Source of the DNA: an uncultured Cohaesibacter sp.
GTDB taxonomy: Bacteria > Pseudomonadota > Alphaproteobacteria > Rhizobiales > Cohaesibacteraceae
Direction: 5' to 3'
Length of the DNA stretch: 64,000 bases
Assembly (NCBI RefSeq): GCF_963667045.1
Contig: NZ_OY762934.1
Coordinates: 1,729,501 to 1,793,500 of the forward strand
The notes under the pieces are model-generated. The model was not told the DNA's origin. It did not search any database and saw only the letters and a list, made by a program, of their open reading frames with translations. Position 1 is the stretch's first letter, and each line of letters begins with the position of its first letter. The position numbers and the translations under genes are program-made. Below, in pieces: positions 31,789 to 53,696 of the stretch.

Positions 31789-31824
31789 GTTTTTAGCCAC
31801 ATCAACACTCCTATGGCACCGTTC

Positions 31825-31838: not shown

Positions 31839-31874
31839 TTTTTCGTGCATTTTTAACTGAGTTGTGCTAAATTC

Positions 31875-33372: not shown

Positions 33373-33407
33373 AGAAGGCTCCGGCGGTTGCCGGAGCCAT
33401 CGCAATG

Positions 33408-35835: not shown

Positions 35836-36455
35836 ATGGCAGAAGATAGGGACGACCGAGTGATGGACAACGTCATTCAAATAGATGAAGGCCGTATCCG
35901 GGATCATCTGGGCGAGATGGTTCGCGGAACCGTCGAGGAAGCGCTGAATGCTATGCTCGATGCAGAAGCTAACCGTCTGTGCGGAGCCAGCCGATACGAG
36001 CGCAATGAAGGCCGCTAGGATACACGTACCGGCAGTTATGAGCGTTCACTTCACACCAAGGCGGGCGAAGAGGCCTTGATTGAGATGTATCTGGCGGGCG
36101 TTTCTGTTCGCAGGGTTGAAGATATCACCGAGGCCCTGTGGGGCACCCGGGTATCGTCAGGCACGGTTTCGAACCTGAACAAGAAGAATCTACGCCAAGA
36201 TCGAAAAATGGCGCCAGCGGCCCATTGAGGGAGAACATCCCTATCTTCACCTGGATGGGATCGTGATGAAGCGGACATGGGCAGGCGAGGTTCGCAATGT
36301 TTCGCTGCTGGTGGCCAGTGCGGTCAACAGGGACGGCTATCGGGCGATATTGAGCATCTGTGAGGGTGCCAAGGAAGACAAGTCCGGCTGGTCCTCATTC
36401 CTGCGGCATCTGGTCGACCGTGGTCTGAAGGGTGTTCATCTGGTCATTGCGGACA
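35836..36455 (+). pseudogene. IS256 (Mutator)-family transposase, degenerate and 3'-truncated
   Basis: The N-terminal part is recognisable (RIRDHLGEMVRGTVEEALNAMLDAEANRLCGA), then TAG at 36016-36018, an internal deletion joining TKAG to EEALIEMYLAGVSVRRVEDITEALWG, and a one-base shift near 36185. The frame resumes with YLHLDGIVMKRTWAGEVRNVSLLVASAVN (first catalytic aspartate) and ends at about HLVIADT. There it abuts the last codons of sspH on the other strand. The rest of the transposase is missing, so this is one edge of the defence island. Confidence 0.85.
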
Positions 36456-36460
36456 CGCTT

Positions 36461-39400
36461 TCAGCAATTTTGATAATCAGCCTGCAATACCTCGACCATC
36501 TCGGTGATAAACAATTCAGAAGCAAATGGAACCTGCGCATAAACGAGCCCTTGCTCACCTTCTGCGCGAACGATCATGTGCCCTTTGCCTAGAAGTCTTT
36601 CTGCCCCGCGTTCTCCAAGGGCAATCTCGGACGTGCCTTCAGAATCCACCCGCAGGATGAGCCGATTGCCGAGTTGAGACCGCAATTGCATCGGCATAAC
36701 GTTTGCCTCAGGTCGTTGCGCTGCAAAAATTAGGTGGATTCCGGCCGCTCTTGCCTTCACGCCTAATCTGCCAACAGTAGAAGTTATGGCCGTCCGGTAC
36801 TCGTCTGTGAGCATCCACTCTGCAAATTCATCATGAATAATCCAATATGTTGGTAACACATCTGCGACATCAACCTTTGCATTATAGGCCGCGATGTTGG
36901 AGGCGCGAGCTTCTTTGAACAGCCGATATCGATTGTCCATTTCCTGGACCAAACGCTCAAGCCGATCGACGGCAGTCTCCTGCTGGTCGATGATCCCTCC
37001 GTCGAGATGGGGCAGGCCATCAAAGGCGAAATAGTCCACGCCCTGCTTCGGATCGATAAGCACAATTCTTGCGTGATGCGGATCGTTCGTCGCAGCGATG
37101 CTCAAGATGATTGACTGCATCAGCACTGACTTCCCGGAACCGGTGCTTCCGGCAATCAAGGTATGCGGCGCGTGCTTTTGGCTGGGGGACAAGAAGAAGA
37201 GTTCGTTGTCGTCTTCGCGGACGCCAATCAAAATCTCCTGCGCGCCCGTAGGCGAAATTGAAGGGTTCCAACGCTGCCAGAGGCTTTGGATATCCACGAC
37301 CTGTCTTTCGGCCCGCGCAACGTAGATCGCGATCGCTCCTGGCTCCGGGCGGACGGAAATGATGTCAAGTTTGTGCGTCGTCAATAGCTCCGAACGCCGC
37401 CGTAATACCTGCTCTACGGTGAGATTGGCAGTACCACTGAAGCGTAGAATGGCAGCATTCGGCGTAAGTTTTTGATCGATAAGCTTTGCCTGAAGACCCA
37501 ATTGCTGCAACGCGCTTCGTGTCATGAGAGCAGTATTTGCCAACCATCTTTCATCCGGCTCCGTTTTAAGGGGGCCGCTGTTTGCGTGTCGATCGATGAC
37601 CGACTTGATTGTTCGGTCGACATTGCCAGCAAATGGAGCCGAGGAGTGCTCGTCCTTCGCAACCACTGTGGAGATGTCTGGGTCTAAAGGTTGGGCCTCT
37701 CTGGAGATATTTGGCTCAGGTGTCTTCGTTTGGATAGACTTCGACTTGACCACCATTGCGCCGTCAACTCCGTGCGGAGTTGGCATTTTACCGTAGATCG
37801 GATCAATCGATCTGAACAGCTCTTCAGGACTTCCTCCGGCGGCATAGATGCCCAGCAGAGCCTTCAATTCGGTTCGGCCAAATACCATCTGACGGCTTGC
37901 GGGTATCCCGCTAACTTCGCTGAAGTCGGTTATCGACCCTGTGTCGAGGGCGGTGGGAACAAAAACATGGCTGAACCCCACGATTTCGATTTTGGCGACA
38001 CCGTCGCGCACGAGCCGGCGCCACTTGGTGAGCGGTACGCTGCTTGACGCTGGCACCTGAATTCCGTCGAGCAGAAGGTCTCCCAACCGGGATAGCCAGG
38101 AATCTCGATCCAGACGGCTAGGCTCTGCCGTCGCATCAACAATGCGTCGGACGGTGTCCCGAAGCTGTTTCTCCGATTCCTTGCGTTTGGGGGAATAAGA
38201 AACAGCATCAACATACTTGGCTTCAGTTACAAGAATTCGAAGTACAAGTTGGTCAACTTCATCGAGTGCAGGCGAGAGGGCGAGGATATCGGCTTGTGTC
38301 TCCTCGCGTGCGCCGAGCCAGCTCGCATAGTCGTCCAGAAAGTACCATCCTACAAGGCGGTCGGGTTCAAGCGACTGGCGCGCCAGGAACCGGCTCAGAA
38401 CGACGCCGATGAGCTCGCCCGCAGCCTCACCACGTTTTGCCGCGCGAAGAACAATGTCGCCCGAAATGTCATTGGCATCTGCAATGAACTGCTCTGCAAG
38501 CGCGTTTAGCTCTTCAGCCGTCATGGATAGCTGAAGCTCTTCGAGGCGGCGGCGCACCATTGCATGAAGCAAGTTAAGCGGTGCACGAGAGGAAATGACG
38601 ACGTTGCGGCCTTGGGTCGATGATTGTTTGTAGCGAATTACCCGGACGCTTTGGTTCTGTAGTTGTCGCCGATCGAGAAGTTCGTCGAAATTGACAACCC
38701 AGGCACCCAGATCGTGGGTCTCCTCGAAGATTCGAGCCGTTCGTGCATCGCGAAAATCCAATTGCCGCACTGGCAAGAGCCGCTTTCCATCATGGTCTCC
38801 TTCGTCGCTCCTTAAGAATGACGTTAGTGCTGAGAGATGGGCCCAACCTTCACGGCTTTGGACGGGCGAGCACAGGTAGACGCAGGATTTTAGATCATCC
38901 ATGGCTCCTGGTCTTCGCCGGGACCATCGCGCAGGCAGCAGTGAGGCAATATCGGCTGGATCAGCCGACTCCCGATACCATTCTACCGAAGCATGTCTCG
39001 AGATTACATCCTGGCTAAACACGATGTCGTAAGGACGACCATCTCTGGCATCGGGTGGCGGTGCCTGATCGGCAATTACGCTGATGCGCAGCCGAGCCAT
39101 GAAGTCCTGGGTCACCTCAGAGGCCGCCAACACCTCTGGCGAGTTGTTCGCACTCGTAAGGATGGACCTGTAGATATCCCGCAAACGCTCTCCGTCGGTG
39201 TGCCGCAGCATGACTTGGCAACGCATATCTTCGTCGTCATTTAGGTCTCCTAGACCTTCGACGATCTGTTGCGGAAGACGGGCCGAGTCGCAATTGTAGA
39301 GCACAAGCGACATGTTCGCGCGTTCGTGCGGGTGGAGGTTGAGGTAGCGCTGGGTCAAGTCCAGGAGGCAGTTGCTGCCAGCGGTTGCGTCATCGTTTGT

Positions 39401-41710
39401 TTCGCCGCTGCCATCTCCCTCAAGAACCGGCCTTTCGTGAAGAGAATAGTCACCCTGGGAATCGACAAGCGTAAGAAGTTCGGGCTTGCGTCCCGTCCAG
39501 GAGACCACCACTTCAGGATAGAATACGTGCCGCATATCTTCCGCCAAGTCACGAAAGAATAACTTCGTGTCTCCTTCTAGACCACCCGGCAGGTCGATGA
39601 TGCTTCGCACCACTTCCTTCAACAGGTGCGCCTTTCGCCACATGGCCGCCAAGCGCAATGGGTGCCAGGGTGCGACGATGGCCGCCGCAGCGCCATCACC
39701 GACCGGGGCTTGCCCCAATTCCAGAAGGGGACGAAGCAACAGCTCCTTGTTTCGATCCCCTGGGGCGAACTTTCGAACCGCGTCGAGTAAGTCGGCGTAG
39801 GCGCTTGCCTGTTCGCGGCACGCCGAGTTCGGCGCTCCCTCTTGTCGGAAGTCTATAATTGCCTCTTCGTAACGCTTACTGAACGTCTCAAAAGACGCTT
39901 TCAGCTGTGCAGCGGCGTCCTCGCTTACAAGATCCTGTTCGTCAGCGGTCTTGAGATTTGCTTTCCACTTCAGCCGGAGATCGCGTTCCCGTCGGTAGGT
40001 GGGGACAAGCGAGCCTCGATCCCGATCATATCCCGGAACAAGCGTTCTCACGTCGGAGAGGTCGATGGATCCGGGTCGACGTCCCGAAGTTCCGGGCTCT
40101 CGTCCGCATCGGAGAGCAACGAATGGGTGCTGGCTCAGGCGTTCCCAATCGTCGGGCAACTGCGAGGAAATCACGTCGGGCCGGTACTTCCAGATGAGCT
40201 GGGCGGATGCCGTTGACGTTCCTCCGTCAAAGTCGGTGGTCTCCAATTCAAGCTGGAACCGCAACTGAAGTGCAGCCTTTGCGACAGACCTGTTGACCGC
40301 TGACTTGTCCTTGCTCTCTCGCCAACTCTGTAGCACGGCCGGATAACCCATCAGGGCGCCAAATTCAAACGTCACTCCTGATCCGAGCAGTTTCTGAAGG
40401 CCGGCATATCGCAACGAAAAGAAGAGGCCCGCTTCGGTGTTCAGATTGCGAAGGTCCCGCTTCGTGACGCTATCGCATCTAATTGTCAGGTGCCGGCGTA
40501 CGCCGGGGTTCGAGCGGGCGTTGAGAGTTTCCATCATGAGAGCCAGCCCTGAGAGGAACTCGTCAGTTTCCAAGGGACGACCGAAAATGAACTTATCCCA
40601 AGAGGACTTGAGCTTTCGGTCTTCTCTGATCTCGTCGCGGTGACGTTCGTAGAACGCTATATCTTCCTCTTCGGGTGCGCTCGTTGTCTTTCGTTTGACC
40701 AGGAGTTCCAGGTACTCCTCATCGTCTTCGGACAGCAGATCAGGAGGACCCTCTGAGTAGAACCGTTGTGTATCCTGTCCAAGGTTTGCTTTCTCTCGTG
40801 CAAGCCCCTCGAACAATGGTTTGACGTGTTCCCATTGACAATTGGCCAAGGCCTCTGAACTCGAATTCCAACCCGGCCGACTTTCTATGAACAGTTCGAC
40901 TACCGGATGCACCAGCACGGGGATCACGTCGCGCGCCTTCTGGTACGCATCTCGAAGCTCGACTTCGGATATGACAATCTGATTTGGATTTTGCTTGAGG
41001 AGATAGGGTTGACGCTTGCGCCGCAACCCAACGAACTCCCGCCGCCACGCAGAAGGATGGCGGCGGGAGCGATCCTTGATCCCAGCAAAAGCGGCGGGGT
41101 CACGAGGCAACTGAAGTGCTGGAAGCGCGTAGCCCAGGGCCTCCACGATGGGGTATCCTTCGTCGATTACAGCCTCGCGCGTCGACACAACATAGCGCGC
41201 GAACCGCTCAAGCGCGGTGGAACCTACCTGAACAAGACCAGCCAGAGATTTTTCCCAATAAAGCCTTGCGTCATCGGTCAGGGCCAGCCCGGCGCTTGCC
41301 ACAGAAACCCATGCAGGCAACCGTTCCATCAATTGTGCCGAACCAACGGGTGTCACTTCGTGAAGTGACATGTCTTCTGCCTGCCCCTCTTCGGAGGTCG
41401 CATTTGTGATCAGAAACGCCAACTTGTCGCAATCAGCGCTGCGATAGAAGGTGGCATTGCGTTCAGTAAGTATATCGTCAGGAAGGGCCTGCCCCTCGAA
41501 TAGTGCTTTTGGCAGCTTGATTTCGACGCGTTCGGTCAAGAAAAGGTCGGCCAGTACTGCTCTGGTGACCGCCACAGTTTGCGCGATGCTCAGTCCGTCG
41601 AGCAGAAAACGTGCCGTCCCAGCTTCGGCAGTGTGATCACTGAGCTCCTCCTTGAGGATCGAGCATGCAACCTTCCCAATCAGTTCGTAGATATTCATCT
41701 TTGCTGTCAC
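36461..41710 (-). CDS. sspH: SspH: large FtsK/HerA-like ATPase of the phosphorothioation-dependent restriction module (DptH-like)
   Basis: This 1749-residue protein has a large unassigned N-terminal part and a C-terminal FtsK-type motor. The motor has Walker A IAGSTGSGKSVLM near residue 1515, IVLIDPKQGVDYF, and Walker B YWIIHDEFAEW, then LIFAAQRPEANVMP. In described SspABCD-SspFGH systems the FGH module damages DNA lacking phosphorothioate and blocks phage replication. The likely start is GTG 41710, overlapping the sspG stop; ATG 41698 is an alternative. It is the last gene of the operon, and its stop lies at the junction with the truncated IS256 gene. The dptH-like identity rests on domain order and neighbours. 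Confidence 0.85.
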   Translation of the reverse strand: MTAKMNIYELIGKVACSILKEELSDHTAEAGTARFLLDGLSIAQTVAVTRAVLADLFLTERVEIKLPKALFEGQALPDDILTERNATFYRSADCDKLAFLITNATSEEGQAEDMSLHEVTPVGSAQLMERLPAWVSVASAGLALTDDARLYWEKSLAGLVQVGSTALERFARYVVSTREAVIDEGYPIVEALGYALPALQLPRDPAAFAGIKDRSRRHPSAWRREFVGLRRKRQPYLLKQNPNQIVISEVELRDAYQKARDVIPVLVHPVVELFIESRPGWNSSSEALANCQWEHVKPLFEGLAREKANLGQDTQRFYSEGPPDLLSEDDEEYLELLVKRKTTSAPEEEDIAFYERHRDEIREDRKLKSSWDKFIFGRPLETDEFLSGLALMMETLNARSNPGVRRHLTIRCDSVTKRDLRNLNTEAGLFFSLRYAGLQKLLGSGVTFEFGALMGYPAVLQSWRESKDKSAVNRSVAKAALQLRFQLELETTDFDGGTSTASAQLIWKYRPDVISSQLPDDWERLSQHPFVALRCGREPGTSGRRPGSIDLSDVRTLVPGYDRDRGSLVPTYRRERDLRLKWKANLKTADEQDLVSEDAAAQLKASFETFSKRYEEAIIDFRQEGAPNSACREQASAYADLLDAVRKFAPGDRNKELLLRPLLELGQAPVGDGAAAAIVAPWHPLRLAAMWRKAHLLKEVVRSIIDLPGGLEGDTKLFFRDLAEDMRHVFYPEVVVSWTGRKPELLTLVDSQGDYSLHERPVLEGDGSGETNDDATAGSNCLLDLTQRYLNLHPHERANMSLVLYNCDSARLPQQIVEGLGDLNDDEDMRCQVMLRHTDGERLRDIYRSILTSANNSPEVLAASEVTQDFMARLRISVIADQAPPPDARDGRPYDIVFSQDVISRHASVEWYRESADPADIASLLPARWSRRRPGAMDDLKSCVYLCSPVQSREGWAHLSALTSFLRSDEGDHDGKRLLPVRQLDFRDARTARIFEETHDLGAWVVNFDELLDRRQLQNQSVRVIRYKQSSTQGRNVVISSRAPLNLLHAMVRRRLEELQLSMTAEELNALAEQFIADANDISGDIVLRAAKRGEAAGELIGVVLSRFLARQSLEPDRLVGWYFLDDYASWLGAREETQADILALSPALDEVDQLVLRILVTEAKYVDAVSYSPKRKESEKQLRDTVRRIVDATAEPSRLDRDSWLSRLGDLLLDGIQVPASSSVPLTKWRRLVRDGVAKIEIVGFSHVFVPTALDTGSITDFSEVSGIPASRQMVFGRTELKALLGIYAAGGSPEELFRSIDPIYGKMPTPHGVDGAMVVKSKSIQTKTPEPNISREAQPLDPDISTVVAKDEHSSAPFAGNVDRTIKSVIDRHANSGPLKTEPDERWLANTALMTRSALQQLGLQAKLIDQKLTPNAAILRFSGTANLTVEQVLRRRSELLTTHKLDIISVRPEPGAIAIYVARAERQVVDIQSLWQRWNPSISPTGAQEILIGVREDDNELFFLSPSQKHAPHTLIAGSTGSGKSVLMQSIILSIAATNDPHHARIVLIDPKQGVDYFAFDGLPHLDGGIIDQQETAVDRLERLVQEMDNRYRLFKEARASNIAAYNAKVDVADVLPTYWIIHDEFAEWMLTDEYRTAITSTVGRLGVKARAAGIHLIFAAQRPEANVMPMQLRSQLGNRLILRVDSEGTSEIALGERGAERLLGKGHMIVRAEGEQGLVYAQVPFASELFITEMVEVLQADYQNC

Positions 41711-43236
41711 ATTCCGAGGGAAAGAGGGTTTTCAACATATGCGCAGGCGTCCGAAAGCCGTCGCAGCATTCCAAGTGTTCGCAGCCTCCGTTCCAAACGC
41801 GCCGAATTCAACTGAAACGATTTGCGGTCGAATTCATCATCTGAAAGTACCTGAACAGCTTCTCGTTCGCCGATGACGAGACCGTAGCGTCGGTACAGCA
41901 GATCGAGAAATTCGCTGTAATCCATTCGGATTGGGACGTTGGCGAGGATCAAAGATTTCAACAAGGCATCCGTGGGAGCGTACCGCAATTGGTTGGTGCC
42001 GCGCCTGGACACCAAGCCGCAACCTGCCCCATACGACCGGTGTACGGCCGCAACGTGCTGTCGGTGCCTTGCCTGTGCTGCACGTTTCAGATCCAGAAAC
42101 AGTGCATTTTCGTCAGGCGGTCCGTTGTAGTCGTCCTCACCGGGCCAGCGCACCGTGTCGACAAGAATCCTTCTGCAATCGGCAAAGGGAGTTTCGCCGC
42201 TTTGACGACGTTGCCATTCCTCACTGCGGCCGATCGCGTCGATATAGGCGTCTACCGCCCGCGACGGCAATGTGTCGTTCATCTGGAAGTTGGAAATCGA
42301 GAGCTCTCGGACGGGCGTGCGTCGCGGTGCCAGCACCTCGCAAATAAAGTGCGGTTTGTCTACGAAGCAATATTCAGCGGCTACGAGCAACAGATAGCGA
42401 AGCAGATGGAGGCAGGTCAGTGCCGCCAAATGAGGATAGGTATCGAATCGGGGAAGAGGTCCTCGCATAAGAGCCAGCCAATCGTTCGCCAGGTCCTCGA
42501 ACGTCTCATGTCTGGCATAGGGCAGATAGCTGTTACCGCGAGTGGATTTGTCTTCCTCATACTCCGGTTCCAGCAGACGCAACAGCTGATCGCAAGGATC
42601 ACCATCCAGCATCTTCGCGATTTCAGGTGCCAATTCGCCAGCTCGCCCGGAACGGCAAAGCATCTGATAGGCCAGTTCGCCTGGCAGACCGAAATTGATG
42701 TATTCGCGTGAGGCGGAATTGTTCTTGACGTTGAGGTCCTCATAAAGAGCGTGACGGCCGAACGGGAACACGAAGCGCGACGACCACCGTTTGTTCGAAC
42801 CATTCTCAATCGTTGTGCCGCGGAGCATCGAAACCATGGCGACGAAGTCGGAGAACGAGCTGAAGCGCTTCCGCAGGTATGAGAAATCCCGCACTGGCAC
42901 AGCTTGCGCACGCTCCGCCATGGCTGTCAGCCACTTCTCCCAGGCGGCGCCATCAGCCAACCTCTCGTCAGCGATCCGCAGCAGCGGCTCGTTATTGTAA
43001 AGAATGTTGCGTGCATACATGCGCTGTGATGGCTTGAAGCGAAGTGGATACGGTTGGCCACCGTCATCGAACAATGCTAGATCGCGCTCCTTGGCCTCAG
43101 CGACCCCCAGCAGCTCAAGGAAAATCAGCCAGGGATTGGTCGTGTCCCAAAGCCGATGGCCCCAGATTTGCTCGTCGATCCACATGTCGTTGTTAGGATG
43201 ATCGTTTCTCGGTGGTGGGGGTAGAGTCTCAAGCAC
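41707..43236 (-). CDS. sspG: SspG: DptG-like component of the restriction module
   Basis: This 509-residue protein has no motif I can name; it has a helical, soluble character. Its position between the DptF-like ATPase and the FtsK-like protein is that of SspG/DptG. GTG 43236 is preceded by GAGGTGATCT and overlaps the sspF stop by eight bases, and its own stop overlaps sspH, so F, G and H are translationally coupled. It is expected to form a complex with SspF and SspH that acts on unmodified DNA. Identity is mostly from gene order. Confidence 0.72.
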   Translation of the reverse strand: MLETLPPPPRNDHPNNDMWIDEQIWGHRLWDTTNPWLIFLELLGVAEAKERDLALFDDGGQPYPLRFKPSQRMYARNILYNNEPLLRIADERLADGAAWEKWLTAMAERAQAVPVRDFSYLRKRFSSFSDFVAMVSMLRGTTIENGSNKRWSSRFVFPFGRHALYEDLNVKNNSASREYINFGLPGELAYQMLCRSGRAGELAPEIAKMLDGDPCDQLLRLLEPEYEEDKSTRGNSYLPYARHETFEDLANDWLALMRGPLPRFDTYPHLAALTCLHLLRYLLLVAAEYCFVDKPHFICEVLAPRRTPVRELSISNFQMNDTLPSRAVDAYIDAIGRSEEWQRRQSGETPFADCRRILVDTVRWPGEDDYNGPPDENALFLDLKRAAQARHRQHVAAVHRSYGAGCGLVSRRGTNQLRYAPTDALLKSLILANVPIRMDYSEFLDLLYRRYGLVIGEREAVQVLSDDEFDRKSFQLNSARLERRLRTLGMLRRLSDACAYVENPLSLGM

Positions 43237-45073
43237 AGATCACCTCAATCACATCATCGACCGGCTCTCCCGTGCTGTTGAGGCTAAGAATTCTAAAGCT
43301 GAGATCCGTTGTTTCCTCTGCCGGGCGGAACCGCGCGAGCGCGGCCAGTATCGTGCTTTTGAAAGCAAGAATGTCTTCTTGGCATTCTTTGGAGAAACTG
43401 CCCGGAAGAGCACCACCTGCCACCCTCATGAGGAATTCATACCGCACCAAGTTAAGTTCAAGGCGCACCTCAACTCCGCTATCTATCTCCACCATAAGCA
43501 TCGGCAATGTGCCTGACCTAAGTTCTACCCTTTCGTGACGACGCGGCGTCACGCTAATGCGTTCGACCAGAATTTGACTCAGCCCTGATGTTGAACCTGA
43601 CAAACCGGCTGCTATGAGCAGTTCCCGGTCTGTGGTCACCAGCATTCCGGTAAAGATGCGATTAAGGCCGTTGACCAAGCGGCCGAGGATGGCGCGGCTG
43701 ATGCGCCCATTGTTTTGCAGAGGAGCGACGACATCCCGCAAAAACTCCCCCGCGTGGCGGAAAACGGTCAGGTCCCAAAGATGCAGCTCATCGCACTGGT
43801 CGTCAGGGATCTGGAAGAAAATTGCTCGCCGTTGTGCCTGTAGGCTGGCCAGGAAGGGATGCTCGCCCTCTTGCGTAGCGTCGGGCCGCTCAAGATAGTC
43901 ATTTCGCAGAGCAGACAATTCGTCGAGTGCCTGTGCGGAATACGCACTTTCGACGAGATTGACGTAATATCTTCTTAGCGTTTCGTCAGAAGGTCCGAAG
44001 ACAAGAACATTGTCGATCCTGTTGGTCGTCTCGTCTCCTATGCCGAAACGATTAAGGAACTCGAAGATCTCCAGGCTCTCGCGGCGGGCCTGAGACAAGT
44101 TCGCCCCAAACAGGTTTTGAAAAATATCTCCGGCATGGGCCTTTCCTGATCGCAACAAAGGCCTGACATCGGCCGGTGACATCAACCTATCTTTGGTGAG
44201 AGGGTGTCCCAAAAGAATGTTCGAAATCAGCAACAGCACGCGCCGGATCGGTGTGTGAAGCTCGTTGAGATCCATTAGCTCAAAGAGCTGCCGCAACCGG
44301 CCCTTGAACTGTGGGGAGGAAAGAATCTCAAAATTTCGGCGGATAGGACAAGACGGCGAGAAAAAGCCATCGGATTCGGCCTCGGCATAAGCGGCCTGCC
44401 ATCCGGGATGGGAGATGATGGCGTCAAGTGTCAGATCCAGAATTGTCGCGCATGAAACTGTGCTGAGGTTGAAGAACGCCACCTCACCCTGGTTCGCTGG
44501 TCTGGCGTCGACCAGACGCGCCTCCAGCAACGCGTGTCCTTCGCTTGAGAGGGGCACGTCAACGGCACGTCGCCACGTATCCAGCAGCTGTCCATCATTG
44601 GCCGCGATAACGAAAATGTTGTCCGGGTCAGGTTCGAAGAAGCTGCGGTTTATGGCCGCAAGCAGTTCGGGTTTGCCGACCCAGCGGCCGTAAGTTCCCG
44701 TAGTCGGCAATGCTGTCAGGTCACGAATAATTCCGACAGTACGGGTGCGACCGCCAACCTCCGCAACGATCTCCTGATAGATTTCGTTTGCAGTCCATTC
44801 GCCGGCGTCTCCGCCCAGCTCGGTCCAGAGCCTTCCGCAGAGCCGGCTCTTGCCGTCGCCCGCCGTTCCGGTGAGGATTACGGTTCGCGCCTTATCTATA
44901 CCTCTTGAGACCGATGCGAACAGTTCAGCTTCGAGCGGATGGACAAAGTCCAAGGGCTCAACCTCGTAACGGCGAGCAGAGCGGCGGATCTGCTCATCGT
45001 ACATATTATCGTTTCTCGAGATTGGACCATATTGTTTGATGAACTTGGCCCATCGGCTCCCCAGCCCCTCCAT
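43229..45073 (-). CDS. sspF: SspF: DptF-like P-loop ATPase of the restriction module
   Basis: This 614-residue P-loop NTPase has Walker A GTAGDGKSRLCG at about residues 69-80 and NIFVIAANDGQLLD further on, as in DptF-type proteins. GGGGAG stands six bases before ATG 45073. In Dnd and Ssp systems the F protein works with G and H in restricting DNA without phosphorothioate. A 65-base gap from sspD separates the modification and restriction parts; a separate promoter there is possible but none was identified. Confidence 0.82.
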   Translation of the reverse strand: MEGLGSRWAKFIKQYGPISRNDNMYDEQIRRSARRYEVEPLDFVHPLEAELFASVSRGIDKARTVILTGTAGDGKSRLCGRLWTELGGDAGEWTANEIYQEIVAEVGGRTRTVGIIRDLTALPTTGTYGRWVGKPELLAAINRSFFEPDPDNIFVIAANDGQLLDTWRRAVDVPLSSEGHALLEARLVDARPANQGEVAFFNLSTVSCATILDLTLDAIISHPGWQAAYAEAESDGFFSPSCPIRRNFEILSSPQFKGRLRQLFELMDLNELHTPIRRVLLLISNILLGHPLTKDRLMSPADVRPLLRSGKAHAGDIFQNLFGANLSQARRESLEIFEFLNRFGIGDETTNRIDNVLVFGPSDETLRRYYVNLVESAYSAQALDELSALRNDYLERPDATQEGEHPFLASLQAQRRAIFFQIPDDQCDELHLWDLTVFRHAGEFLRDVVAPLQNNGRISRAILGRLVNGLNRIFTGMLVTTDRELLIAAGLSGSTSGLSQILVERISVTPRRHERVELRSGTLPMLMVEIDSGVEVRLELNLVRYEFLMRVAGGALPGSFSKECQEDILAFKSTILAALARFRPAEETTDLSFRILSLNSTGEPVDDVIEVICA

Positions 45074-45138
45074 ACACTTCTCCCCCTCTTTACTTGCAAC
45101 CCACTATCGCTTCCAACTTTCGCTTCGTTTGTTTCTCT

Positions 45139-45993
45139 CTATAGCGAGCATACAAGGCAGCCGTCGCGGAGATGGCTGTCATCTTCGACCTCAAGACCTC
45201 CCAGCGTTTCGACGAGTGCCAAAGACTTGCGATTGGCCCTTTTTCGCGCTTGGGCTTTTTCCCAATCAGCTTTGATTTTCGCTACGCGTTCCGGTTTTGC
45301 CAGCTCGCGCAGGGGTTCGTTCTGGCACCAGAAGAACTGCTCGCCGAATTGAACAGCCTTTTCTTCATACGCCTGAGCGAGTTCGAAATAGCTGGGATGG
45401 GTTTCCAGAAGCCGCACCCACTCGATCTTTTGCTGATAGAAGCAAAAGTAACATCCCGATCGTGAGCGACCCCAGTCCATGTACGGTGGCAGGCCCAGGC
45501 CTGAATCCGCGAGAATGCGCATGATGTCCGCTCGAACCAGCCCGTCATCCTGAAACGGATAGACCGCCAGGATATTCGGCTTGGTGCTAATATATCCCGT
45601 CCGGTTTTCATCCGCTCGAAGGCCCACGTAGTTGATGACCGGGCCATCTCCGACATAGGCCTCGAACGGCTTTAGCTTGAGCATCTTGGTGCACCAACGG
45701 CGATGGTTCGACGGCAGCATGCCTCTATAGACCGTCAGCCAATGGTCGAAACTGTCGACCGGAGTAGTTCGGACAATCGGTTTGCCCAGGATCGCTTCGA
45801 GTCGGCCGATATAGTCATAGGTCTCGGGCAGCTCCTTATCCGTGTCGTGGAAGATGTACTCGATCTCTGGAACGCGGTCTCGCAAGTAGATGGCGAGTGC
45901 GGCGCTATCCTTTCCCCCAGATAGGCTTAAAATGTGCCGTGGCGTTTCCGTGTCGAAGGCATTTGATCGCTGCTGCGCATCGTTAGTGGTCAT
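45139..45993 (-). CDS. sspD: SspD: PP-loop ATP pyrophosphatase of DNA phosphorothioation (DndC-like)
   Basis: This 284-residue member of the PAPS-reductase/PP-loop family has ATP loop SGGKDS at residues 25-30 and HDTDKELPETYDYI. Cysteines in RRWCTKMLKLKPFE and RSGCYFCFYQQKIEW match the iron-sulfur-binding cysteines of DndC-type proteins. It is expected to activate the DNA backbone phosphate with ATP so that sulfur from SspA can be inserted. It overlaps sspC by 11 bases. With SspA, SspB and SspC it makes the complete modification set. Confidence 0.88.
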   Translation of the reverse strand: MTTNDAQQRSNAFDTETPRHILSLSGGKDSAALAIYLRDRVPEIEYIFHDTDKELPETYDYIGRLEAILGKPIVRTTPVDSFDHWLTVYRGMLPSNHRRWCTKMLKLKPFEAYVGDGPVINYVGLRADENRTGYISTKPNILAVYPFQDDGLVRADIMRILADSGLGLPPYMDWGRSRSGCYFCFYQQKIEWVRLLETHPSYFELAQAYEEKAVQFGEQFFWCQNEPLRELAKPERVAKIKADWEKAQARKRANRKSLALVETLGGLEVEDDSHLRDGCLVCSL

Positions 45994-48900
45994 GGGTAAG
46001 CCTCACGTCGGTAGCCTCAACTGCTCCGGTTTCTTCGGACGAGAGCTGTCGGACACGTTCCAGTTCCTGCCACAGGAGATTTGCCAGGATCTGGATACGT
46101 TGCGTCTCTCCTAGCGGTAGCCGCTTTGCCAGGGCTTGCATTGCCTCCTGGTCACCTTCATCGAGCGAGACCGGGTGTAGGACGCGGACGAGGTCACGGC
46201 CGTCGCCTCTGGTAAGATTCAAACGTATGGCGTCTACGTCGGGGAGTTCCTCGGATGACGAGAATATGGTGCTTTCTACCCTGGCAAAAACTTCGGCCAG
46301 CGCCCCGATTTCCTCGGTGAAGCGAACCTCGTCACCTGGCAGCCAGCGGCTGGGCGGCTTTGCCACCACGAAGCTTGCTAGAGATTCGGCCCATGCCTCA
46401 TCATGAAGGGCCGGATCTCGCAATCGCAATGCGAAGGCCCTCAGACGAGGCTCACGCGCAGCGAGAGTGACTCGAGCGGCACGCGATGCCAGGCCGACGC
46501 GATCGAATTGCTGAGGATCCTGGCCGATCGCTTCGCTGGTGGCCTTCACGATCCGCTTAATCAACTCCCCATATGTGTTCTGCAGTTCCAACACTGAATC
46601 GGTGAAACGGCTAATGAAGTTGTCAATGGAGCTGTTATCGACCTGGTCTATTCCGAAACTCGGTAGACCGCAGGCCTGCGGTAGTTCGGCGAAGAGTAGG
46701 CTTGCGGGCTCTCGGGCTGACAATAGCGCATCACGCACCGCGACCGTGGTCGGAGAAAGAGCTTTCGCCTTGCGAGTATATTCGGGAAGCTTAGCTACAA
46801 ACTGGCAAAGCTGCGTCACCACGTCAAGCAGCACTGGCTGCCGGCCTTCGATGCCCTTGGCAAAAAGACCTGCCAGTCTGACAAAAACGTCAGACCGAAC
46901 GCCCTCCACGCTGCAATGTTGTATATCGAAAGTCTGCGGAGCCTTCGTGAGGCGCAGGAATTCCATCGAGCCGAATTTGGGAAGGAAGGTCCCATTTTCG
47001 TAGAGTGCAAGTTCGTGTCCGTGCTCTTTGATAACCAGAGCCAGAAGGATCGGAGCTAATCCATTTCGAACGCCGAATGGTCTGCCCGCCAGTCGGGCCA
47101 AGATTTCGGATATGGGGACGCGGCAACCTCGGCCTTCGCGCACAAGTTTTAGAACTTCGAGAAGGCTTGGGCGCAGATGAAGCCGATCCAGTGATGCCGG
47201 GGGGGTTTGAAGGACAAAGCTGTCGTCTTGCTGGACATGCAAAGCGCCCCTTTGCAGCACGGAGAGGTACATTGACTTCTCGGGCGGCGCTTTGTGCTCG
47301 TTTATCCCCAGAAAGACTATGTCCGATGACTCGAACATGCCCTCGATGAGGCGCATCCGCGCTGACGCAGCCGCACTGCTCAGCACATTTCGATTGATCA
47401 GTTCATTGGCGACGCGCGGTGCAAGAGGATAAAGCTCCGAACAAAGTTCGGAGACGATCTTGGGCAAGTTACTACCAGCGTCAAAACGCTGGCCGCGATG
47501 TATCCACTCGACGGCCGCAACCCCATCGATCTTTGTCAAAGCATCGAACTGTGCACGCAGCGCCTGTCGCGAACGCGTTATCTGGCGCTGCACTTCCGAA
47601 GCGGCAAAATCGTCATTGGCAAGATCTGGAGTATTGTTCTCAACCCATTGCCATAGAATTACATCGCGCAGATAGGCCGCAAGATGCCAAACGGGAGGCA
47701 ATAACCCAATCAGGACCGCAGGATCGTCAGCGACTTGAGGCGAAACGGCTGCATCTCTAGCGTTCTTCTGCTGCTCCTTTTGGTCTGACAAAGACATTAT
47801 GATGAGCCCGTCCGCGTCCGTTGGGCCTGCTGTGGCAGCAATGACGTCCTCGGCGGCAGTGTAGCGCACTTCGAAGTAGCGCATGGTTCCAGTTTCGAGA
47901 TAGTGCCTTCTAGCCAGAACCATTTCGCTATCAAGAAAATCGCACAGCGCAGGGGCAACAGCTTCTATATCGCCCACCGCACGATTTGCGGCTTCAACAG
48001 ATGTTTGCAGGTTGATACTCGAATTCGGCCAAAGTCGATATGAGCCCATACCGCCCCTCTCAAACAGCAACCCCGCGCGGCCCAAGCTCTCGATTGCTCG
48101 GCTAACGTCGTCTGCCCCGTGCATTGACAGGCAGACCATGATGTTATTGCGCGTCGGCAAGAGATCTTCCGCATCAAGCAGGTTCAGCAAGCCAACGGTT
48201 TTGAGAACTTTTAGCTCAACCGGATTCGCATCGACGGAGCCGTCAATCGTCGCCACAATCCTCAACCACTGGCTTTGATAATTTGTGGTTGAAAGACGGT
48301 GTCCAAAGGTGCCGCGCACATAATCGTAGAACTTGGAAATGTCGAACCAGCCACTTCCAAGTTGGGTCGCGGTGGCAAAAGCCTGCAAGGCCATTGGCTC
48401 GCTGGAAAGGAGAAATCCAAACAGCGATCTCTCGCTCTGGCCGAACTGGGAGAAAAACCGCACCATTGCTGGCAGCAGGGTCGGGTGCAAAGGGTAAAAC
48501 CCGATAGGTTCGACAGAAAAGCCTCGCACTCCCAACCAGCCGATGCCAATCGTAGCTTCTAATGCAGTTCCGGCCTGTATCCTCACCGCATTGGAGAGCT
48601 TTGTGGCGTCAACTCCGAGCGCGCCGGCAACCAGCGCTGCAGTGTGAACCAAAGGTTGATCGAAGACGATCTCCTCAAATCTGCCTGCAACCTTGTCCCA
48701 TTCATGGCGAAGTGCCAAAGGCAAGCGTTCAGCATATGCCTGGAAACCTTGATGCAAGATCCCGACGAGAAGGAACGGCTTATTGCCGCTGCGCGCGGCG
48801 AGCTCACCCAGGCGCTGGAGTGCGAAGACATCTTCGTGGTCCGGGTTCATTGCCGCATGCTCAAGCAATTTGCCGAGTTCGTCGACGACGAGCAGAACGC

Positions 48901-49423
48901 CAAGGTCCCGGTCGGCGGCCAGCTTCATCAAGCAAGAGATAAGCTGCTCCAGAGCTCGGACGGAGCCTTGTGCTTCGCATGCGGCAATGCTTGCCTCAAG
49001 ACGCGCGCTTATGAGCTCGCCGAAACCGTGTTCCGTTATGCTTTCCCGGATGCCTCGGGCGACCACCGTGGGAATGCTTTCCCGACTTCCTGTCACAAGG
49101 ATCGGCAAATAGCGCTTACTGCAGCGATCTGCGCTCCAGCCGATAGTTGCAGCGACGCGTTGAGCGTCGCTCGCCAATGGGTCGCTGAGCAGCCGCGCTA
49201 GGACGAGCGCCATGCTTGATTTGCCGACGCCATAGTCTCCGGTAATACGCCATGCGCGGCGCTTCGAGCCACCTTCTGTGCTTTCAAGAATACGACGCAA
49301 GGCCTCCGCCATAGGAGGCGTGACGATGTAATTTTCCAGAGCCGCAGCGTCCGAAAAGTCTTTTTCCAGTTGAACTGACCGCAAGAAGTGGACAGGAGCA
49401 GCGAAGATATCGGAAATGTTCAT
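45983..49423 (-). CDS. sspC: SspC: P-loop ATPase of the phosphorothioation module
   Basis: This 1146-residue ATPase has Walker A GDYGVGKSSMAL at about residues 62-73 and Walker B VLLVVDELGKLLEHAA near residue 190. It is needed for DNA sulfur modification in Ssp systems, probably as the motor that opens or moves DNA. The start at ATG 49423 (MNISDIF) was chosen for its GAGGGGG ribosome site; in-frame ATGs at 49441 and 49456 would overlap sspB. BREX-type ATPases have a similar fold, but the neighbours decide for Ssp. Confidence 0.84.
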   Translation of the reverse strand: MNISDIFAAPVHFLRSVQLEKDFSDAAALENYIVTPPMAEALRRILESTEGGSKRRAWRITGDYGVGKSSMALVLARLLSDPLASDAQRVAATIGWSADRCSKRYLPILVTGSRESIPTVVARGIRESITEHGFGELISARLEASIAACEAQGSVRALEQLISCLMKLAADRDLGVLLVVDELGKLLEHAAMNPDHEDVFALQRLGELAARSGNKPFLLVGILHQGFQAYAERLPLALRHEWDKVAGRFEEIVFDQPLVHTAALVAGALGVDATKLSNAVRIQAGTALEATIGIGWLGVRGFSVEPIGFYPLHPTLLPAMVRFFSQFGQSERSLFGFLLSSEPMALQAFATATQLGSGWFDISKFYDYVRGTFGHRLSTTNYQSQWLRIVATIDGSVDANPVELKVLKTVGLLNLLDAEDLLPTRNNIMVCLSMHGADDVSRAIESLGRAGLLFERGGMGSYRLWPNSSINLQTSVEAANRAVGDIEAVAPALCDFLDSEMVLARRHYLETGTMRYFEVRYTAAEDVIAATAGPTDADGLIIMSLSDQKEQQKNARDAAVSPQVADDPAVLIGLLPPVWHLAAYLRDVILWQWVENNTPDLANDDFAASEVQRQITRSRQALRAQFDALTKIDGVAAVEWIHRGQRFDAGSNLPKIVSELCSELYPLAPRVANELINRNVLSSAAASARMRLIEGMFESSDIVFLGINEHKAPPEKSMYLSVLQRGALHVQQDDSFVLQTPPASLDRLHLRPSLLEVLKLVREGRGCRVPISEILARLAGRPFGVRNGLAPILLALVIKEHGHELALYENGTFLPKFGSMEFLRLTKAPQTFDIQHCSVEGVRSDVFVRLAGLFAKGIEGRQPVLLDVVTQLCQFVAKLPEYTRKAKALSPTTVAVRDALLSAREPASLLFAELPQACGLPSFGIDQVDNSSIDNFISRFTDSVLELQNTYGELIKRIVKATSEAIGQDPQQFDRVGLASRAARVTLAAREPRLRAFALRLRDPALHDEAWAESLASFVVAKPPSRWLPGDEVRFTEEIGALAEVFARVESTIFSSSEELPDVDAIRLNLTRGDGRDLVRVLHPVSLDEGDQEAMQALAKRLPLGETQRIQILANLLWQELERVRQLSSEETGAVEATDVRLTHDH

Positions 49424-49433
49424 CAATGCCCCC

Positions 49434-50384
49434 TCAGCCATGGATGATCGCCTCATTTTTGTAGATGCTTTCAGCGTCCGCCGTCACCACATTGTCGCGG
49501 GCCAGCAGGCCCTGAATGGCGGACGGGCGGTAGCTAATACCAAATCGCCCATCACGCACGAGAGCTTCAAGACGTGAACGAACGTCGTCCTCGGGTAGCT
49601 TGAAGACCTGGCCCGGTGCGCCCGGAGATGACATGACGTTCCGCACGAGCAAGGTTTTTTCCGCAGGTGCAACGCGGTCCCAATAGTCTAGGAGGCTATA
49701 AGCGAAGAGTTCGTTTGATATTTCCGACTTCGGTTCACGGCGAAACGCATAGACAGGCTCCCACCGTCCGTTATCTCCGCGACGCTCACCAGTTTGCTGA
49801 AGGAGACGCAATTCGACGAACGGGCCATCAAGCGAGTCCTCCACCCCGACCCGTGCGCCTCTGGCAGAGAGGTAGGTGTGCAGGAAGACGTCTAAATGTT
49901 GGCTCAATGTCACGCTGGAATGAGAATAGCCCAGACGTTGTGACTGTCTCACAAATCCTGCGAGTGCTTCCGAACGAGAAAATTCCGGGTACGGCCAGGC
50001 CCCCAAGAGATAATTCCACGCAAACAGCGCCGGAGTTGCGGCAGATGACAGGGTCCAGTGCAGGAGCCACAATGTCTTGGCTTCTTCTAGGAATGGATCA
50101 CAGCCCGCCTGCCCGAAGATGGTATGCCCCAGATTCGTGATTGCATGGGTGCGCTCTCCTGTGGGTCGCGCTATGCCCATGGCGTCGACCCAAAAGCGCA
50201 GCGCGCGGACCATATTCTTACCAATGCCCAGCTCGACCATGGCGGCGTCTTCATTGAAGAAAATTCCTGGATCTTCCTCAATCGCGCGGTAGGCTTTTGG
50301 CAACCACGCGTATCGGCAAGCGAATGTTTCGTGGCCGGAAAACCGGAAGCTCGGATGCTCTTGGTCAAGGTTGAGGTCAAACAT
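49434..50384 (-). CDS. sspB: SspB: DUF4007 DNA nickase of the phosphorothioation module
   Basis: This 316-residue DUF4007 protein (FRFSGHETFACRYAWLPKAYRAI start, AMVELGIGKNMVRALRFWVDAMGI) matches the family that includes SspB, which nicks DNA to allow single-strand sulfur insertion. The C-terminal winged-helix-like half (SYRPSAIQGLLARDNVVTADAESIYKNEAIIHG end) may bind DNA. GGAG precedes ATG 50384, three bases after the sspA stop. It is the marker that separates Ssp (single-strand) from Dnd (double-strand) systems, as no DndD or DndE gene is present. Confidence 0.88.
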   Translation of the reverse strand: MFDLNLDQEHPSFRFSGHETFACRYAWLPKAYRAIEEDPGIFFNEDAAMVELGIGKNMVRALRFWVDAMGIARPTGERTHAITNLGHTIFGQAGCDPFLEEAKTLWLLHWTLSSAATPALFAWNYLLGAWPYPEFSRSEALAGFVRQSQRLGYSHSSVTLSQHLDVFLHTYLSARGARVGVEDSLDGPFVELRLLQQTGERRGDNGRWEPVYAFRREPKSEISNELFAYSLLDYWDRVAPAEKTLLVRNVMSSPGAPGQVFKLPEDDVRSRLEALVRDGRFGISYRPSAIQGLLARDNVVTADAESIYKNEAIIHG

Positions 50385-50386
50385 CG

Positions 50387-51571
50387 TTAGCTCCGCATAA
50401 ATCTTGTACGAACGTCATGGATTGCATCAGCAATCAGTATCGCAGCAACCTCGATATCGTCGGACTGCGTGGCTCGCCCCAGGCCGATGCGGATACAACT
50501 GTCCAGCAGCGTCTCAGGCACACCCATCGCTCGTAGAACATGGGAAGGTTCTTGCGCCCCGGCGTTGCAAGCGGAACCACTCGATGCCGAGAGTTTCCCA
50601 CGCAACCGGCCCAACACAATGTCGTTGGGCGCCCCTGGAGCGGAAAAATTCAAATTGTGAGGCAGGCGATTGTCCAAGTCGCCGTTGATCGCTAGGTTCG
50701 GCACCAATGCAAGCAGACGATCTTGCAGGTGATTGCGTAAGCGCTCTAGACGCTCGCATTCGGCAGGCCCTTCCATCTCCATTATTTCGCAAGCTCGCCC
50801 CATCGCTGCAATGCCTGCGACATTTGGCGTTGGACTGTGGGCACCTTGCAGGCCATAGATTACCGTGCGATCAAACTTCGGGGCGACCAAGGCACCTACC
50901 CCTTTCGGCCCAAAAATCTTGTGTCCGCTGAGGGCCACGTAGTCGAGTGTTTCGTCGACTTCAGCTATCGCCATCCGCCCGACGGCCTGGGTGGCATCGA
51001 CAAGCACGGCGGCTCCATACTCGTGAGATGCCTCGGCAATCTTCTGGACCGGGTAGATTGTACCAACTTCGTTGTTGGCTGCCATGATGCATACGAGATC
51101 GACCCCTTGGACTAGAGCCTGCTCCAGGCTCGTCCAACCCAGGCGGGCCTTGTTGTCAACGTCGATCCAGTGCTTTTGAACCAGACCCATTTGTTCCGCT
51201 CGCAAAACAGTATCGATCACGGCTTTGTGCTCGACCCGTGACATCGCGACGCGCAAGGGATTTGGACGCATAGCGATAGCATGCGCGATGGCAAGCTGGA
51301 TGGCCTCCGTTGATCCAGATGTGAAATGAACATCCTCCGGCTCGGCGGCCAAGACTCGGGCGACAGCGGCCCTGGCTTCAGAAACCGAATTTGCCGCGTG
51401 TTCGCCGTGGATATTTTCCACGCCGTTGGCATTCCCGAAGCTCTCAACCATCATATGGACTGCAACGTCCAGAACCCGAGGGTCAACCGGGGTGGTTGCG
51501 TGGTGGTCCATGTAGATCGGCAGACGCTCGGCTGTGCCAGAAATCGCTGGATGGAATAGGTGTTCATTCAT
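50387..51571 (-). CDS. sspA: SspA: cysteine desulfurase for DNA phosphorothioation
   Basis: This 394-residue PLP enzyme takes sulfur from L-cysteine as a persulfide. The PLP lysine lies in LSGHKIFGPKGVGALV and the active-site cysteine in ASSGSACNAGAQEPSHVL, and the start YMDHHATTPVDPRV is typical. It provides sulfur to SspD. Its ATG overlaps the XRE regulator stop by eight bases, so regulator and modification genes are co-translated. General IscS enzymes look alike; placement with sspBCD supports the sspA name. Confidence 0.9.
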   Translation of the reverse strand: MNEHLFHPAISGTAERLPIYMDHHATTPVDPRVLDVAVHMMVESFGNANGVENIHGEHAANSVSEARAAVARVLAAEPEDVHFTSGSTEAIQLAIAHAIAMRPNPLRVAMSRVEHKAVIDTVLRAEQMGLVQKHWIDVDNKARLGWTSLEQALVQGVDLVCIMAANNEVGTIYPVQKIAEASHEYGAAVLVDATQAVGRMAIAEVDETLDYVALSGHKIFGPKGVGALVAPKFDRTVIYGLQGAHSPTPNVAGIAAMGRACEIMEMEGPAECERLERLRNHLQDRLLALVPNLAINGDLDNRLPHNLNFSAPGAPNDIVLGRLRGKLSASSGSACNAGAQEPSHVLRAMGVPETLLDSCIRIGLGRATQSDDIEVAAILIADAIHDVRTRFMRS

Positions 51572-51872
51572 GGAGTGATGCCTTTATTGCACCAGGCGCC
51601 AGATCGTTCGGAGGCCGCACGTTGATTTCCACGTTGCAGCCAAGTTGCACGAGCCACCGCAGTAATTGGTCGGTGCTGACGCTGTCACTTCGGCCCGATA
51701 AGACCTTTGACACTGTTGGCTGATCGGTTATGCAAACCTTGGCGGCTTGAGTCTGGCTAAGCCCTGCGTCGGCAACAACGCGTCTGAATATGAAACGTAA
51801 ATTGGAGCGCACCACATGGGTAACATCTGGAGGATCATTTGCAATCGTTGATCGCAAGTCTGAATGTCCCAT
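51564..51872 (-). CDS. XRE-family regulator heading the ssp operon
   Basis: This 102-residue helix-turn-helix protein (VVADAGLSQTQAAKVCITDQPTVSKVLSGRSD) resembles HigA-like or HTH_37 regulators. ATG 51872 has a GAGG site six bases upstream; the longer upstream frame lacks support. It overlaps sspA by eight bases and is the first gene of the operon. Two inverted repeats lie 30-70 bases upstream. DndB-type repressors control many dnd loci; none is present, so this XRE protein is a candidate substitute. That role is inference. Confidence 0.8.
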   Translation of the reverse strand: MGHSDLRSTIANDPPDVTHVVRSNLRFIFRRVVADAGLSQTQAAKVCITDQPTVSKVLSGRSDSVSTDQLLRWLVQLGCNVEINVRPPNDLAPGAIKASLHE

Positions 51873-51905
51873 ATATACCTCATTGTAGTGATTCGCCCTT
51901 ACAAC

Positions 51906-51938
51906 TATGGGAAATTTTCCATATTCCCAGCAAGGGAA
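51906..51938. promoter_or_regulatory. Two adjacent inverted repeats upstream of the ssp operon
   Basis: TATGGGAAATTTTCCATA (51906-51923) is a palindrome with one mismatched pair. It is directly followed by TTCCC-AGCAA-GGGAA (51924-51938). Shared GGGAA half-sites suggest a cooperative operator for the XRE protein 34 bases downstream. Confidence 0.5.
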
Positions 51939-52117
51939 ATCTGCGAGTATTCGGCCGATAACCACATAATATTGTGTTAGAATTCAATGCCTGTTTCTTA
52001 CCGAATACTTCTAAAATATCGTTTGGTCACCAAATGCCGTGCTGAAGTGGAAACAGGCCTAGCGAGGTTACACGACGAGGCGCGCCAGGTTTTCGATCGC
52101 ACAGAATGCTCTAAACC

Positions 52118-52993
52118 CTCGATCTCAACCTGCTCAAAGCGCTGGATGCCCTTATCAGCGAACGAAGCGTGACCATGGCTGCTGACAGCCTCGGCTTCAC
52201 GCAACCCGCTGTAAGCGGCATGCTGACGCGCTTGCGCGAGAGTTTCGATCGGCTCAATCTCGACCCTATCATTTTGTGCCAGGGCATGCTGACGCGCTTG
52301 CGCGAGAGTTTCGATGATCCGCTCTTTGTCCGCACGCAACATGGCATCGTGCCCACCCTGCGCGCGCTGGAGCTGGCCGCCCCCGTCAAACAGATCCTCA
52401 CAGAGGTGGAGGCCCTATTGCAGCCTGCGGATTTCGATCCGGTCACGGCGGACTTTACGCTTTCCATCGCCGCAACGGGCTATGCGCTTCAGGCTGTGGT
52501 GGTTCCGTTTATTGCCAAATTGCGGCGGCGCGCTCCGGGCACACGCATTACCATCCGCCCGGTCGAGAGGGGCCACACGAAGGAAAATTTCTTGCGAGGA
52601 GACCTTGATCTGGCTCTGACAACACCCGACGCTGTCTATCCGGAACTGCGCTCACGGCGGCTGTTTGATGAGAGCTATATCTGCGCGATGCGACAGGACC
52701 TCCCGGACGCGGTGGCCAGCGAGCTATCGCTGGAGCGTTTCTGCGCGCTTGATCAGGTTCTGGTATCCTATGCGGGCAACCGCTTCTGGGGCGTAACGGA
52801 TGATGCCCTTGCAAAGACCGGGCACGCGCGGCGTTTTGCGATGACGGTGACGAGCTTTATGGTTCTCACGGAAATATTACGCCAGATAGATCTGATCGCC
52901 GTTGTTCCGCGTCGGTTGGTCGCCGAGGCTCCCGGCCTGAAACTATGCATGCCTCCCCTTGAAGTGCCCGGCTTTACCAAGATTGCTCTCTAG
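52118..52993 (+). pseudogene. LysR-family regulator, broken at both ends and carrying an internal duplication
   Basis: The usual LysR start (LDLNLLKALDALISERSVTMAADSLGFTQPAVSGMLTRLRESF) is readable from 52118, but an in-frame TAA lies just before it and no start codon precedes the LDLN motif. A 66-base in-frame duplication repeats GMLTRLRESFD inside the DNA-binding domain. The effector domain continues to PGFTKIAL and ends at TAG 52993, where an IS3 fragment begins. It is likely non-functional and marks the right edge of the ssp island. Confidence 0.8.
52217..52315 (+). repeat. In-frame direct duplication inside the LysR pseudogene
   Basis: A 33-base unit occurs at 52217-52249 and again at 52283-52315, exactly 66 bases apart. 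It adds 22 residues to the helix-turn-helix region. Confidence 0.85.
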
Positions 52994-53148: not shown

Positions 53149-53312
53149 AGCGATCTTGCATCGAGGGAGATGTCAGCAAACCGCGCCTTTTTTGACAAAG
53201 CATATTATTGGTCAGCCAGCGAGGCTTCACCATTCGCGGCTTGAACACTCCAGCACTCTTTCATTTGAAATTTTTCTATGCTATATTTTCTATGGAAATC
53301 ATGGAGAAGAGC

Positions 53313-53696
53313 ATGCGACAGGTTCTGAACACGGCAAAAGCGGATGCATCACGTGGGCAAGTGGCGACCAAGGCCGTACTTGGTGCTGCTGAACGGCTTG
53401 GGCTAACTGCTGGCCAGTTGGCTGGTGTGATTGGCCTCTCGCCTCCAACTGTTTCGCGGATGAAGAAGGGCGGCTACGTGCTTGATGAGGGTTCCAAGGA
53501 ATTCGAGTTGGCCTTGCATCTTGTGCGGGTTTTCCGTTCGTTGGATGCGATCACGGGCGGTGACGAAGTGGTTGCCCGTCAATGGATGAAGAACGGAAAC
53601 AAGGCGCTGGAGGCCACGCCTCTTGATGCCATCATGAGTGTTGCAGGGCTTTTGAATGTCTCAAACTATCTGGATAGTCGGCGCGCTATCATCTGA
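53313..53696 (+). CDS. Xre/MbcA/ParS-type antitoxin (DUF2384)
   Basis: This 127-residue protein has an N-terminal Xre-like domain (GLTAGQLAGVIGLSPPTVSRMKKGG) and the C-terminal toxin-binding domain (ALHLVRVFRSLDAITGGDEVVARQWMKNGNKALEATPLDAI). It neutralises the RES toxin encoded next. The start at ATG 53313 has GGAGAAGAGC upstream; ATG 53292 and 53301 are alternatives. It overlaps the toxin gene by 41 bases. Confidence 0.85.
   Translation: MRQVLNTAKADASRGQVATKAVLGAAERLGLTAGQLAGVIGLSPPTVSRMKKGGYVLDEGSKEFELALHLVRVFRSLDAITGGDEVVARQWMKNGNKALEATPLDAIMSVAGLLNVSNYLDSRRAII

Follow-up and report, generated by a model that had tools for sequence, protein, structure and literature searches.

A predicted dedicated autorepressor and its palindromic operator at the head of an SspABCD-SspFGH phosphorothioate defence operon in Cohaesibacter

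Introduction

The SspABCD-SspFGH class of phosphorothioate (PT) defence was published in 2021 (PMC8092258). The parts of that study consulted here count 2,678 sspBCD loci, 196 with sspFGH and 199 with sspE, and 36 additional genomes that carry both sspFGH and sspE; the Rhizobiales are richest in sspFGH, with 40 of the 196 sspBCD-sspFGH strains. Homologues were shown to place PT at CpsCA, and the mark was found on only 10-15% of target sites in the strains studied. SspFGH homologues elsewhere damage unmarked DNA and are toxic without PT (same parts of PMC8092258).

The IscS-SspBCD-SspFGH system of Vibrio anguillarum FF-93 has the same modification and effector modules as the locus described here, and in the genome of our organism, too, no SspE-type gene was found. 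In contrast to the FF-93 system, sspA sits in the operon of our locus, and a helix-turn-helix (HTH) gene and an operator stand at its head. We found no regulator of the FF-93 system described in the consulted parts of PMC8092258, and none for any Ssp system in the open-access literature searched.

Dedicated regulators have been described for other defence systems. The nearest precedent is DndB of the Salmonella dnd system, which binds TACGN10CGTA and controls dndCDE as well as its own gene (PMC4507180, in part). The HTH gene of our locus resembles dndB in being encoded with a PT system, in having a palindrome at its own promoter and in its predicted control of its own gene. However, DndB has a DGQHR motif and not an HTH_37 domain, has two sites where the window has one, and belongs to Dnd and not to Ssp (PMC4507180, same parts). 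BrxR and CapW are also dedicated transcription factors of defence systems, but are members of the WYL-domain family and control other systems (PMC9122589, PMC9122588, as far as consulted).

Here we analyse a stretch of 64,000 nucleotides from an uncultured Cohaesibacter sp., called the window below. With a probability of roughly 0.7, we read it as carrying an intact, horizontally acquired SspABCD-SspFGH operon with its own dedicated repressor.

Results

Gene content of the locus

Seven long minus-strand ORFs occupy positions 36461-51571 in the order sspA-B-C-D-F-G-H, and the best PADLOC match of every one is its own Ssp model (Table 1). The initial annotation, made from the letters alone, had proposed these seven same-strand genes, an Ssp-type assignment, DUF4007 in the 316-residue protein and intact Walker and cysteine motifs. 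All of this was borne out: the profile search found DUF4007, the gene content, order and models fit SspABCD-SspFGH, and the motifs are present in SspA, SspC, SspD, SspF and SspH. Its placing of the system in a class already described also agrees with the literature cited above. Its labels DptF-like and DptG-like did not hold, since the two proteins match the SspF and SspG models; DptFGH/DndFGH naming was rejected, with DndF reaching 0.0064, DndH 0.00035 over a short FtsK stretch and DndG giving no match in PADLOC. It had also counted seven genes in 36461..51872; the seven ssp genes are there, but the span really holds eight, the HTH gene having been left unnamed. The predicted operator, sited just outside that span, was likewise missing from the annotation.

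Table 1. Features of the ssp locus (window coordinates), followed by loci of relatives that carry the kinase-receiver module (L numbers are our locus handles).
Feature	Coordinates	Strand	Evidence
sspA, cysteine desulfurase, 394 aa	50387..51571	-	PADLOC SspA 1.4e-100; catalytic motifs SGHK at 215 and SGSAC at 331 (catalytic Cys and PLP Lys present)
sspB, DUF4007 nickase homologue, 316 aa	49434..50384	-	PF13182 4e-66; PADLOC SspB 9.9e-113; aligns with solved SspB structures 6juf/6lb9, 1.2e-35
sspC, ATPase, 1157 aa	45983..49456	-	PADLOC SspC E 0; Walker A GDYGVGKS at 73
sspD, PP-loop sulfur transfer enzyme, 284 aa	45139..45993	-	PADLOC SspD 8e-116; SGGKDS at 25; CxxC at 181 and 279
sspF, 614 aa	43229..45073	-	PADLOC SspF 1.1e-204; Walker A GTAGDGKS at 69
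sspG, 509 aa	41707..43236	-	PADLOC SspG 5.2e-192
sspH, FtsK/SpoIIIE domain at C terminus, 1749 aa	36461..41710	-	PADLOC SspH E 0; FtsK 3.1e-35; Walker A GSTGSGKS at 1521
HTH_37 (XRE-like) protein, 102 aa, predicted autorepressor of ssp operon	51564..51872	-	PF13744 1.6e-11, obtained on a longer 133-aa ORF
Palindromic operator (predicted HTH binding site), TATGGAAAATTTCCCATA on minus strand	51906..51923	.	Conserved in 19/19 HTH loci
GAATC (GANTC, putative CcrM-type methylation site)	51890..51894	.	GANTC ≤40 nt downstream of operator in 16/19 loci
Truncated Mutator-type transposase fragment, abuts sspH stop	36263..36463	+	Transposase_mut 2.4e-15, residues 7-67 of ORF 36263-36592
Kinase-receiver module in relatives	L080 30076-32948; L081 21284-25659; L082 30164-32948; L096 7593-11849		
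Kinase-module loci in relatives	L038, L039, L044, L045, L046, L048, L049, L050, L058, L060, L061, L065, L074		

From the HTH gene to sspH, five of the seven gene junctions overlap by their coordinates; the sspA-sspB gap is 2 nt and the sspD-sspF gap 65 nt. The locus holds a modification module, with the SspC ATPase and the PP-loop SspD beside the DUF4007 SspB and a cysteine desulfurase, and an effector module made of SspF with its Walker A motif, SspG, and SspH with an FtsK-like C terminus. SspH is full length, two plasmid relatives having 1750 and 1751 residues and differing in the last residues only. SspA reaches almost the same score with its own model and with that of DndA (335.2 vs 334.3 bits, PADLOC), and its label therefore rests on the neighbouring genes. 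A search of the whole genome gave no match to GmrSD_N, which we take to be the SspE-type domain; the control search was positive in 8 of 14 genomes. The absence of SspE noted by the initial annotation thus stands; its view that an alphaproteobacterial copy without SspE is noteworthy is weak, the Rhizobiales being the largest group in the count given above (PMC8092258, parts consulted). Judged by its sequence, the locus is an intact SspABCD-SspFGH operon of known class and ordinary in itself.

We give next to no credence to the locus being a type 4 BREX or MADS-like system. SspC does match the BrxC-PglY model (8.9e-128), SspH matches mad8 (2.2e-24) and SspG matches MAD7 (3.7e-11, under its cut-off). 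However, the Ssp models score far above the BREX and MADS models in PADLOC, and no PglZ, BrxL or methyltransferase was found among 20 flanking ORFs scanned, a subset of the ORFs of the window. MAD7 and MAD8 of MADS, a system that is methylation-associated by model name, unlike Ssp, thus show a weak sequence relation to SspG and SspH, with scores under the curated cut-off. The MAD7 model matched SspG in all of 11 homologues (best 1.1e-14, under cut-off) and mad8 matched SspH; the SspFGH and MADS effectors may share ancestry.

Genomic context

The GC content is 0.54-0.57 over 36-52 kb of the window vs 0.59-0.63 over 8-22 kb. One congener (G149) has 16.5-23.2 kb of the window in common (91%); another (G316) matches the window over 17.6-21.0 kb, 31.5-34.1 kb and some short segments, and ssp is absent from the stretch compared. 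DUF4007 was found in two of 18 genomes of the genus, our own included, and the other (G355) has 33% identity to the SspB of the window. Over the class, the SspB search matched five of 385 genomes, again including our own, with the other four 33-38% identical. No close plasmid copy of the locus was found at the DNA level. We consider acquisition of the ssp locus by transfer likely.

In G355 the locus belongs to a remote type, and its neighbouring genes resemble sspA and sspC. Compared with the Rhizobiaceae contig L032, identity steps from 66-82% (HTH, SspA, SspB and SspC) to 91-94% (SspD, SspF, SspG and part of SspH), as if the two halves of the operon had had different histories. For all eight genes, the identity values of L033, a contig assigned to Candidatus Contendobacter, to the window equal those of L032; this contig was probably misbinned.

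Several other features flank the operon. HipA-type genes lie to its left at 32114-32779 and 34169-35410, on both strands, and 31518-34060 of the window is common to G316. An Xre/MbcA/ParS-type antitoxin and RES-domain toxin pair (53208-54399) adjoins the ssp operon. Identical inverted arms of 282 nt stand at 56227-56508 and 63719-64000; the left one takes in the end of an integrase-core gene (55498-56463) whose DNA matches IS481 transposases on plasmids.

The HTH gene at the operon head

The eighth gene opens the operon from an ATG at 51872, and its end overlaps the sspA start. The nearest solved structure to its product is 2a6c (1.1e-6). A longer GTG start at 51965 was rejected; with it, the palindrome described below would fall inside the gene.

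A search with the HTH protein gave 66 relatives among 71 candidates, 65 of them at E≤3.5e-24. In one scan of a genome collection, 13 of 43 SspB loci had a member of the family immediately before sspA, among them all eight whose SspB is at least 72% identical. The other 30 loci, some of them on short contigs, had no match to the family, so the regulator belongs to a subset of ssp loci. When plasmids were searched by tblastn and the best six matches examined, the four best and number six, from Rhizorhabdus wittichii RW1 (43% identity), were directly before sspA; the fifth, from Skermanella, was an HTH relative away from ssp. The homologue in S. terangae is missing from the distributed gene table. 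Across the order, 34 of 397 genomes matched, our own included; when 30 of these loci, each with flanks of about 1.5 kb, were searched by tblastn, the window's own gene was the only one with ssp next to it.

A conserved palindrome upstream of the HTH gene

Alignment of the upstream DNA of the window and ten further loci revealed one strongly conserved block, TATGGAAAATTTCCCATA, followed by a short CGAATCA; the rest was poorly alignable. The pattern TATGGN8CCATA is found upstream of the HTH gene beside ssp in all 19 loci, 15 times exactly and four times with one mismatch (L039, L067, L081 and L082). These loci are related and the counts hence non-independent; after clustering at 80% HTH identity, 11 of 13 clusters had the exact site. 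Two loci fetched after the motif had been defined (L095 and L096) both fit exactly. Among shuffled upstream regions, 6 of 9500 had an exact site, and among random windows, 24 of 4000, drawn from a locus pool that includes the operators themselves. The full pattern TATGGRAAWWTTYCCATA has a single perfect site in the 5,241,083-bp genome of the organism, the one in Table 1, and occurs with two mismatches at three other places. In distant loci the arms alone persist and the spacer is wholly changed (3-4 mismatches to the full pattern).

In 14 of 17 loci, the first in-frame start comes 24-36 nt after the end of the palindrome; in L032 and L033 an in-frame ATG follows it directly, and L067 has a spacing of 74. 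No palindrome was found in nine ssp loci that have no member of the HTH family, where the best sites had 2-4 mismatches; this control comprised those 9 of the 30 loci that have sspA and readable upstream DNA. The palindrome was also absent at the non-ssp HTH relative of Skermanella. In 94 loci, the exact arms gave one match elsewhere, at 19697 of L050, an ssp locus without the HTH gene, where it lies far from the ssp start. The consensus scan called no sigma-70 promoter at 51800-52200; in several relatives we read CTTGC ... CATAAT as putative promoter boxes.

HTH_37 domains are common in antitoxins, and the gene might be a leftover of that type with no role in ssp control, the more so as HTH_37 genes elsewhere in the order are not neighbours of ssp. 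We regard this as very unlikely, given the conserved overlap with sspA and a palindrome that keeps step with the gene down to about 31% HTH identity; in addition, two ORFs scanned upstream (51998-52342 and 52111-52467) had no Pfam match. The protein has a DNA-binding domain, and a conserved palindrome stands at its own promoter region. The HTH gene with its predicted operator is a new part of an otherwise known system, and our best reading, from sequence conservation, is that its product would be the Ssp counterpart of DndB and an autorepressor of the whole ssp operon.

Instead of simply repressing, the HTH protein could act as an activator or dual controller, much as the C proteins do in some restriction-modification systems, and hold back SspFGH for a time once the operon has reached a new host. 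A small XRE-like protein heading an operon for modification plus restriction fits this idea, as does the toxicity of SspFGH without PT (PMC8092258, in part). We nevertheless think it unlikely: no second operator was found before sspF or elsewhere in the window at up to three mismatches, and the single one lies where the promoter core appears in relatives, which favours repression.

A GANTC site beside the operator

In 16 of 19 loci, GANTC lies in the 40 nt that follow the operator, compared with 7.3% in random 40-mers from the same loci. It is missing there in L052 and L067, which carry the labels Acidobacteria and Bryobacterales, and in the alphaproteobacterium RW1. The genome of our organism encodes a RAMA-domain protein (PF18755 search; control positive in Caulobacter alone), which we presume to be CcrM. 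It is a speculative possibility that a CcrM-type GANTC beside the operator adds a second input to control.

The operator core, ATGGN8CCAT, is present in 18 of 19 loci and puts 5'-CCA-3' in both half-sites, on opposite strands. This trinucleotide is the motif of the Ssp enzymes studied, and that of the window's own enzyme may differ. If SspABCD sulfurated its own operator, there would be direct feedback on PT density. The operator might then be a PT sensor through which the repressor reads genome marking and adjusts the operon, and the GANTC next to it could contribute a signal of replication or entry. We hold this to be improbable. PT is reported to alter the binding of a phage repressor, yet mutated PT motifs changed nothing there (PMC8569181, in part), and by our estimate CCA or TGG would occur by chance in about 9% of 5-bp half-sites, which speaks against a sensor.

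A kinase-receiver gene pair in related loci

Outside the window, many relatives have a two-gene module beside ssp. One gene encodes a predicted kinase of about 780-820 aa (one ORF has 916) with an N-terminal HATPase_c_3 (Hsp90-like) and a C-terminal HATPase_c domain. At least 14 of 15 sequences retain H564-E565-L566, N673, N677 and D711 with the following glycines, as in histidine kinases. Its partner evolves fast (614-769 aa) and has a receiver signature, with D21, D154, S208 and K235 invariant over 39 aligned sequences and D22 in at least 90%. Within the flanking DNA examined, the kinase was found in 13 of 43 SspB loci (Table 1), placed after sspD where it replaces sspFGH, between sspC and sspD, or nearby. 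Nineteen plasmid records match the kinase, 15 of them near full length, and SspB was within 18 kb in all 12 compared, two of which look like one plasmid; three Acinetobacter and four weaker records were left out.

The pair is convergent and just beyond sspH in Agrobacterium sp. T29 and S. terangae, at the place that the transposase fragment takes in the window. No remnant of the pair was found in the window (best E 0.47), and none of the 13 matches to the kinase query in our organism's genome reached beyond the final 300 or so residues of that query. The pair is a candidate third Ssp module, which may serve as an effector or as a sensor. It is also a candidate for part of the 2,000-odd sspBCD loci that are without sspE or sspFGH in the counts consulted (PMC8092258).

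Discussion

We propose that SspA and SspD would mobilize sulfur, SspB would nick the DNA and SspC would serve as ATPase, and that the resulting single-strand phosphorothioates would mark self DNA; by analogy with homologues, SspFGH would damage DNA that lacks the mark. The XRE-like repressor, probably a dimer, is expected from the conservation to bind TATGGN8CCATA at the promoter and hold down its own gene and the whole operon, presumably from one promoter. The marking genes would come first in the transcript. Given the toxicity of SspFGH to DNA that lacks the mark, repression would keep the system low and let these genes rise ahead of those of the effector or together with them.

SspFGH harms unmarked DNA and only a small part of the sites is marked in the strains studied (PMC8092258, parts consulted), and therefore the safety and level-setting of the system matter. 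With a small predicted regulator and one defined operator, Ssp control becomes experimentally tractable, and the kinase-receiver pair of the relatives is a lead that deserves separate study.
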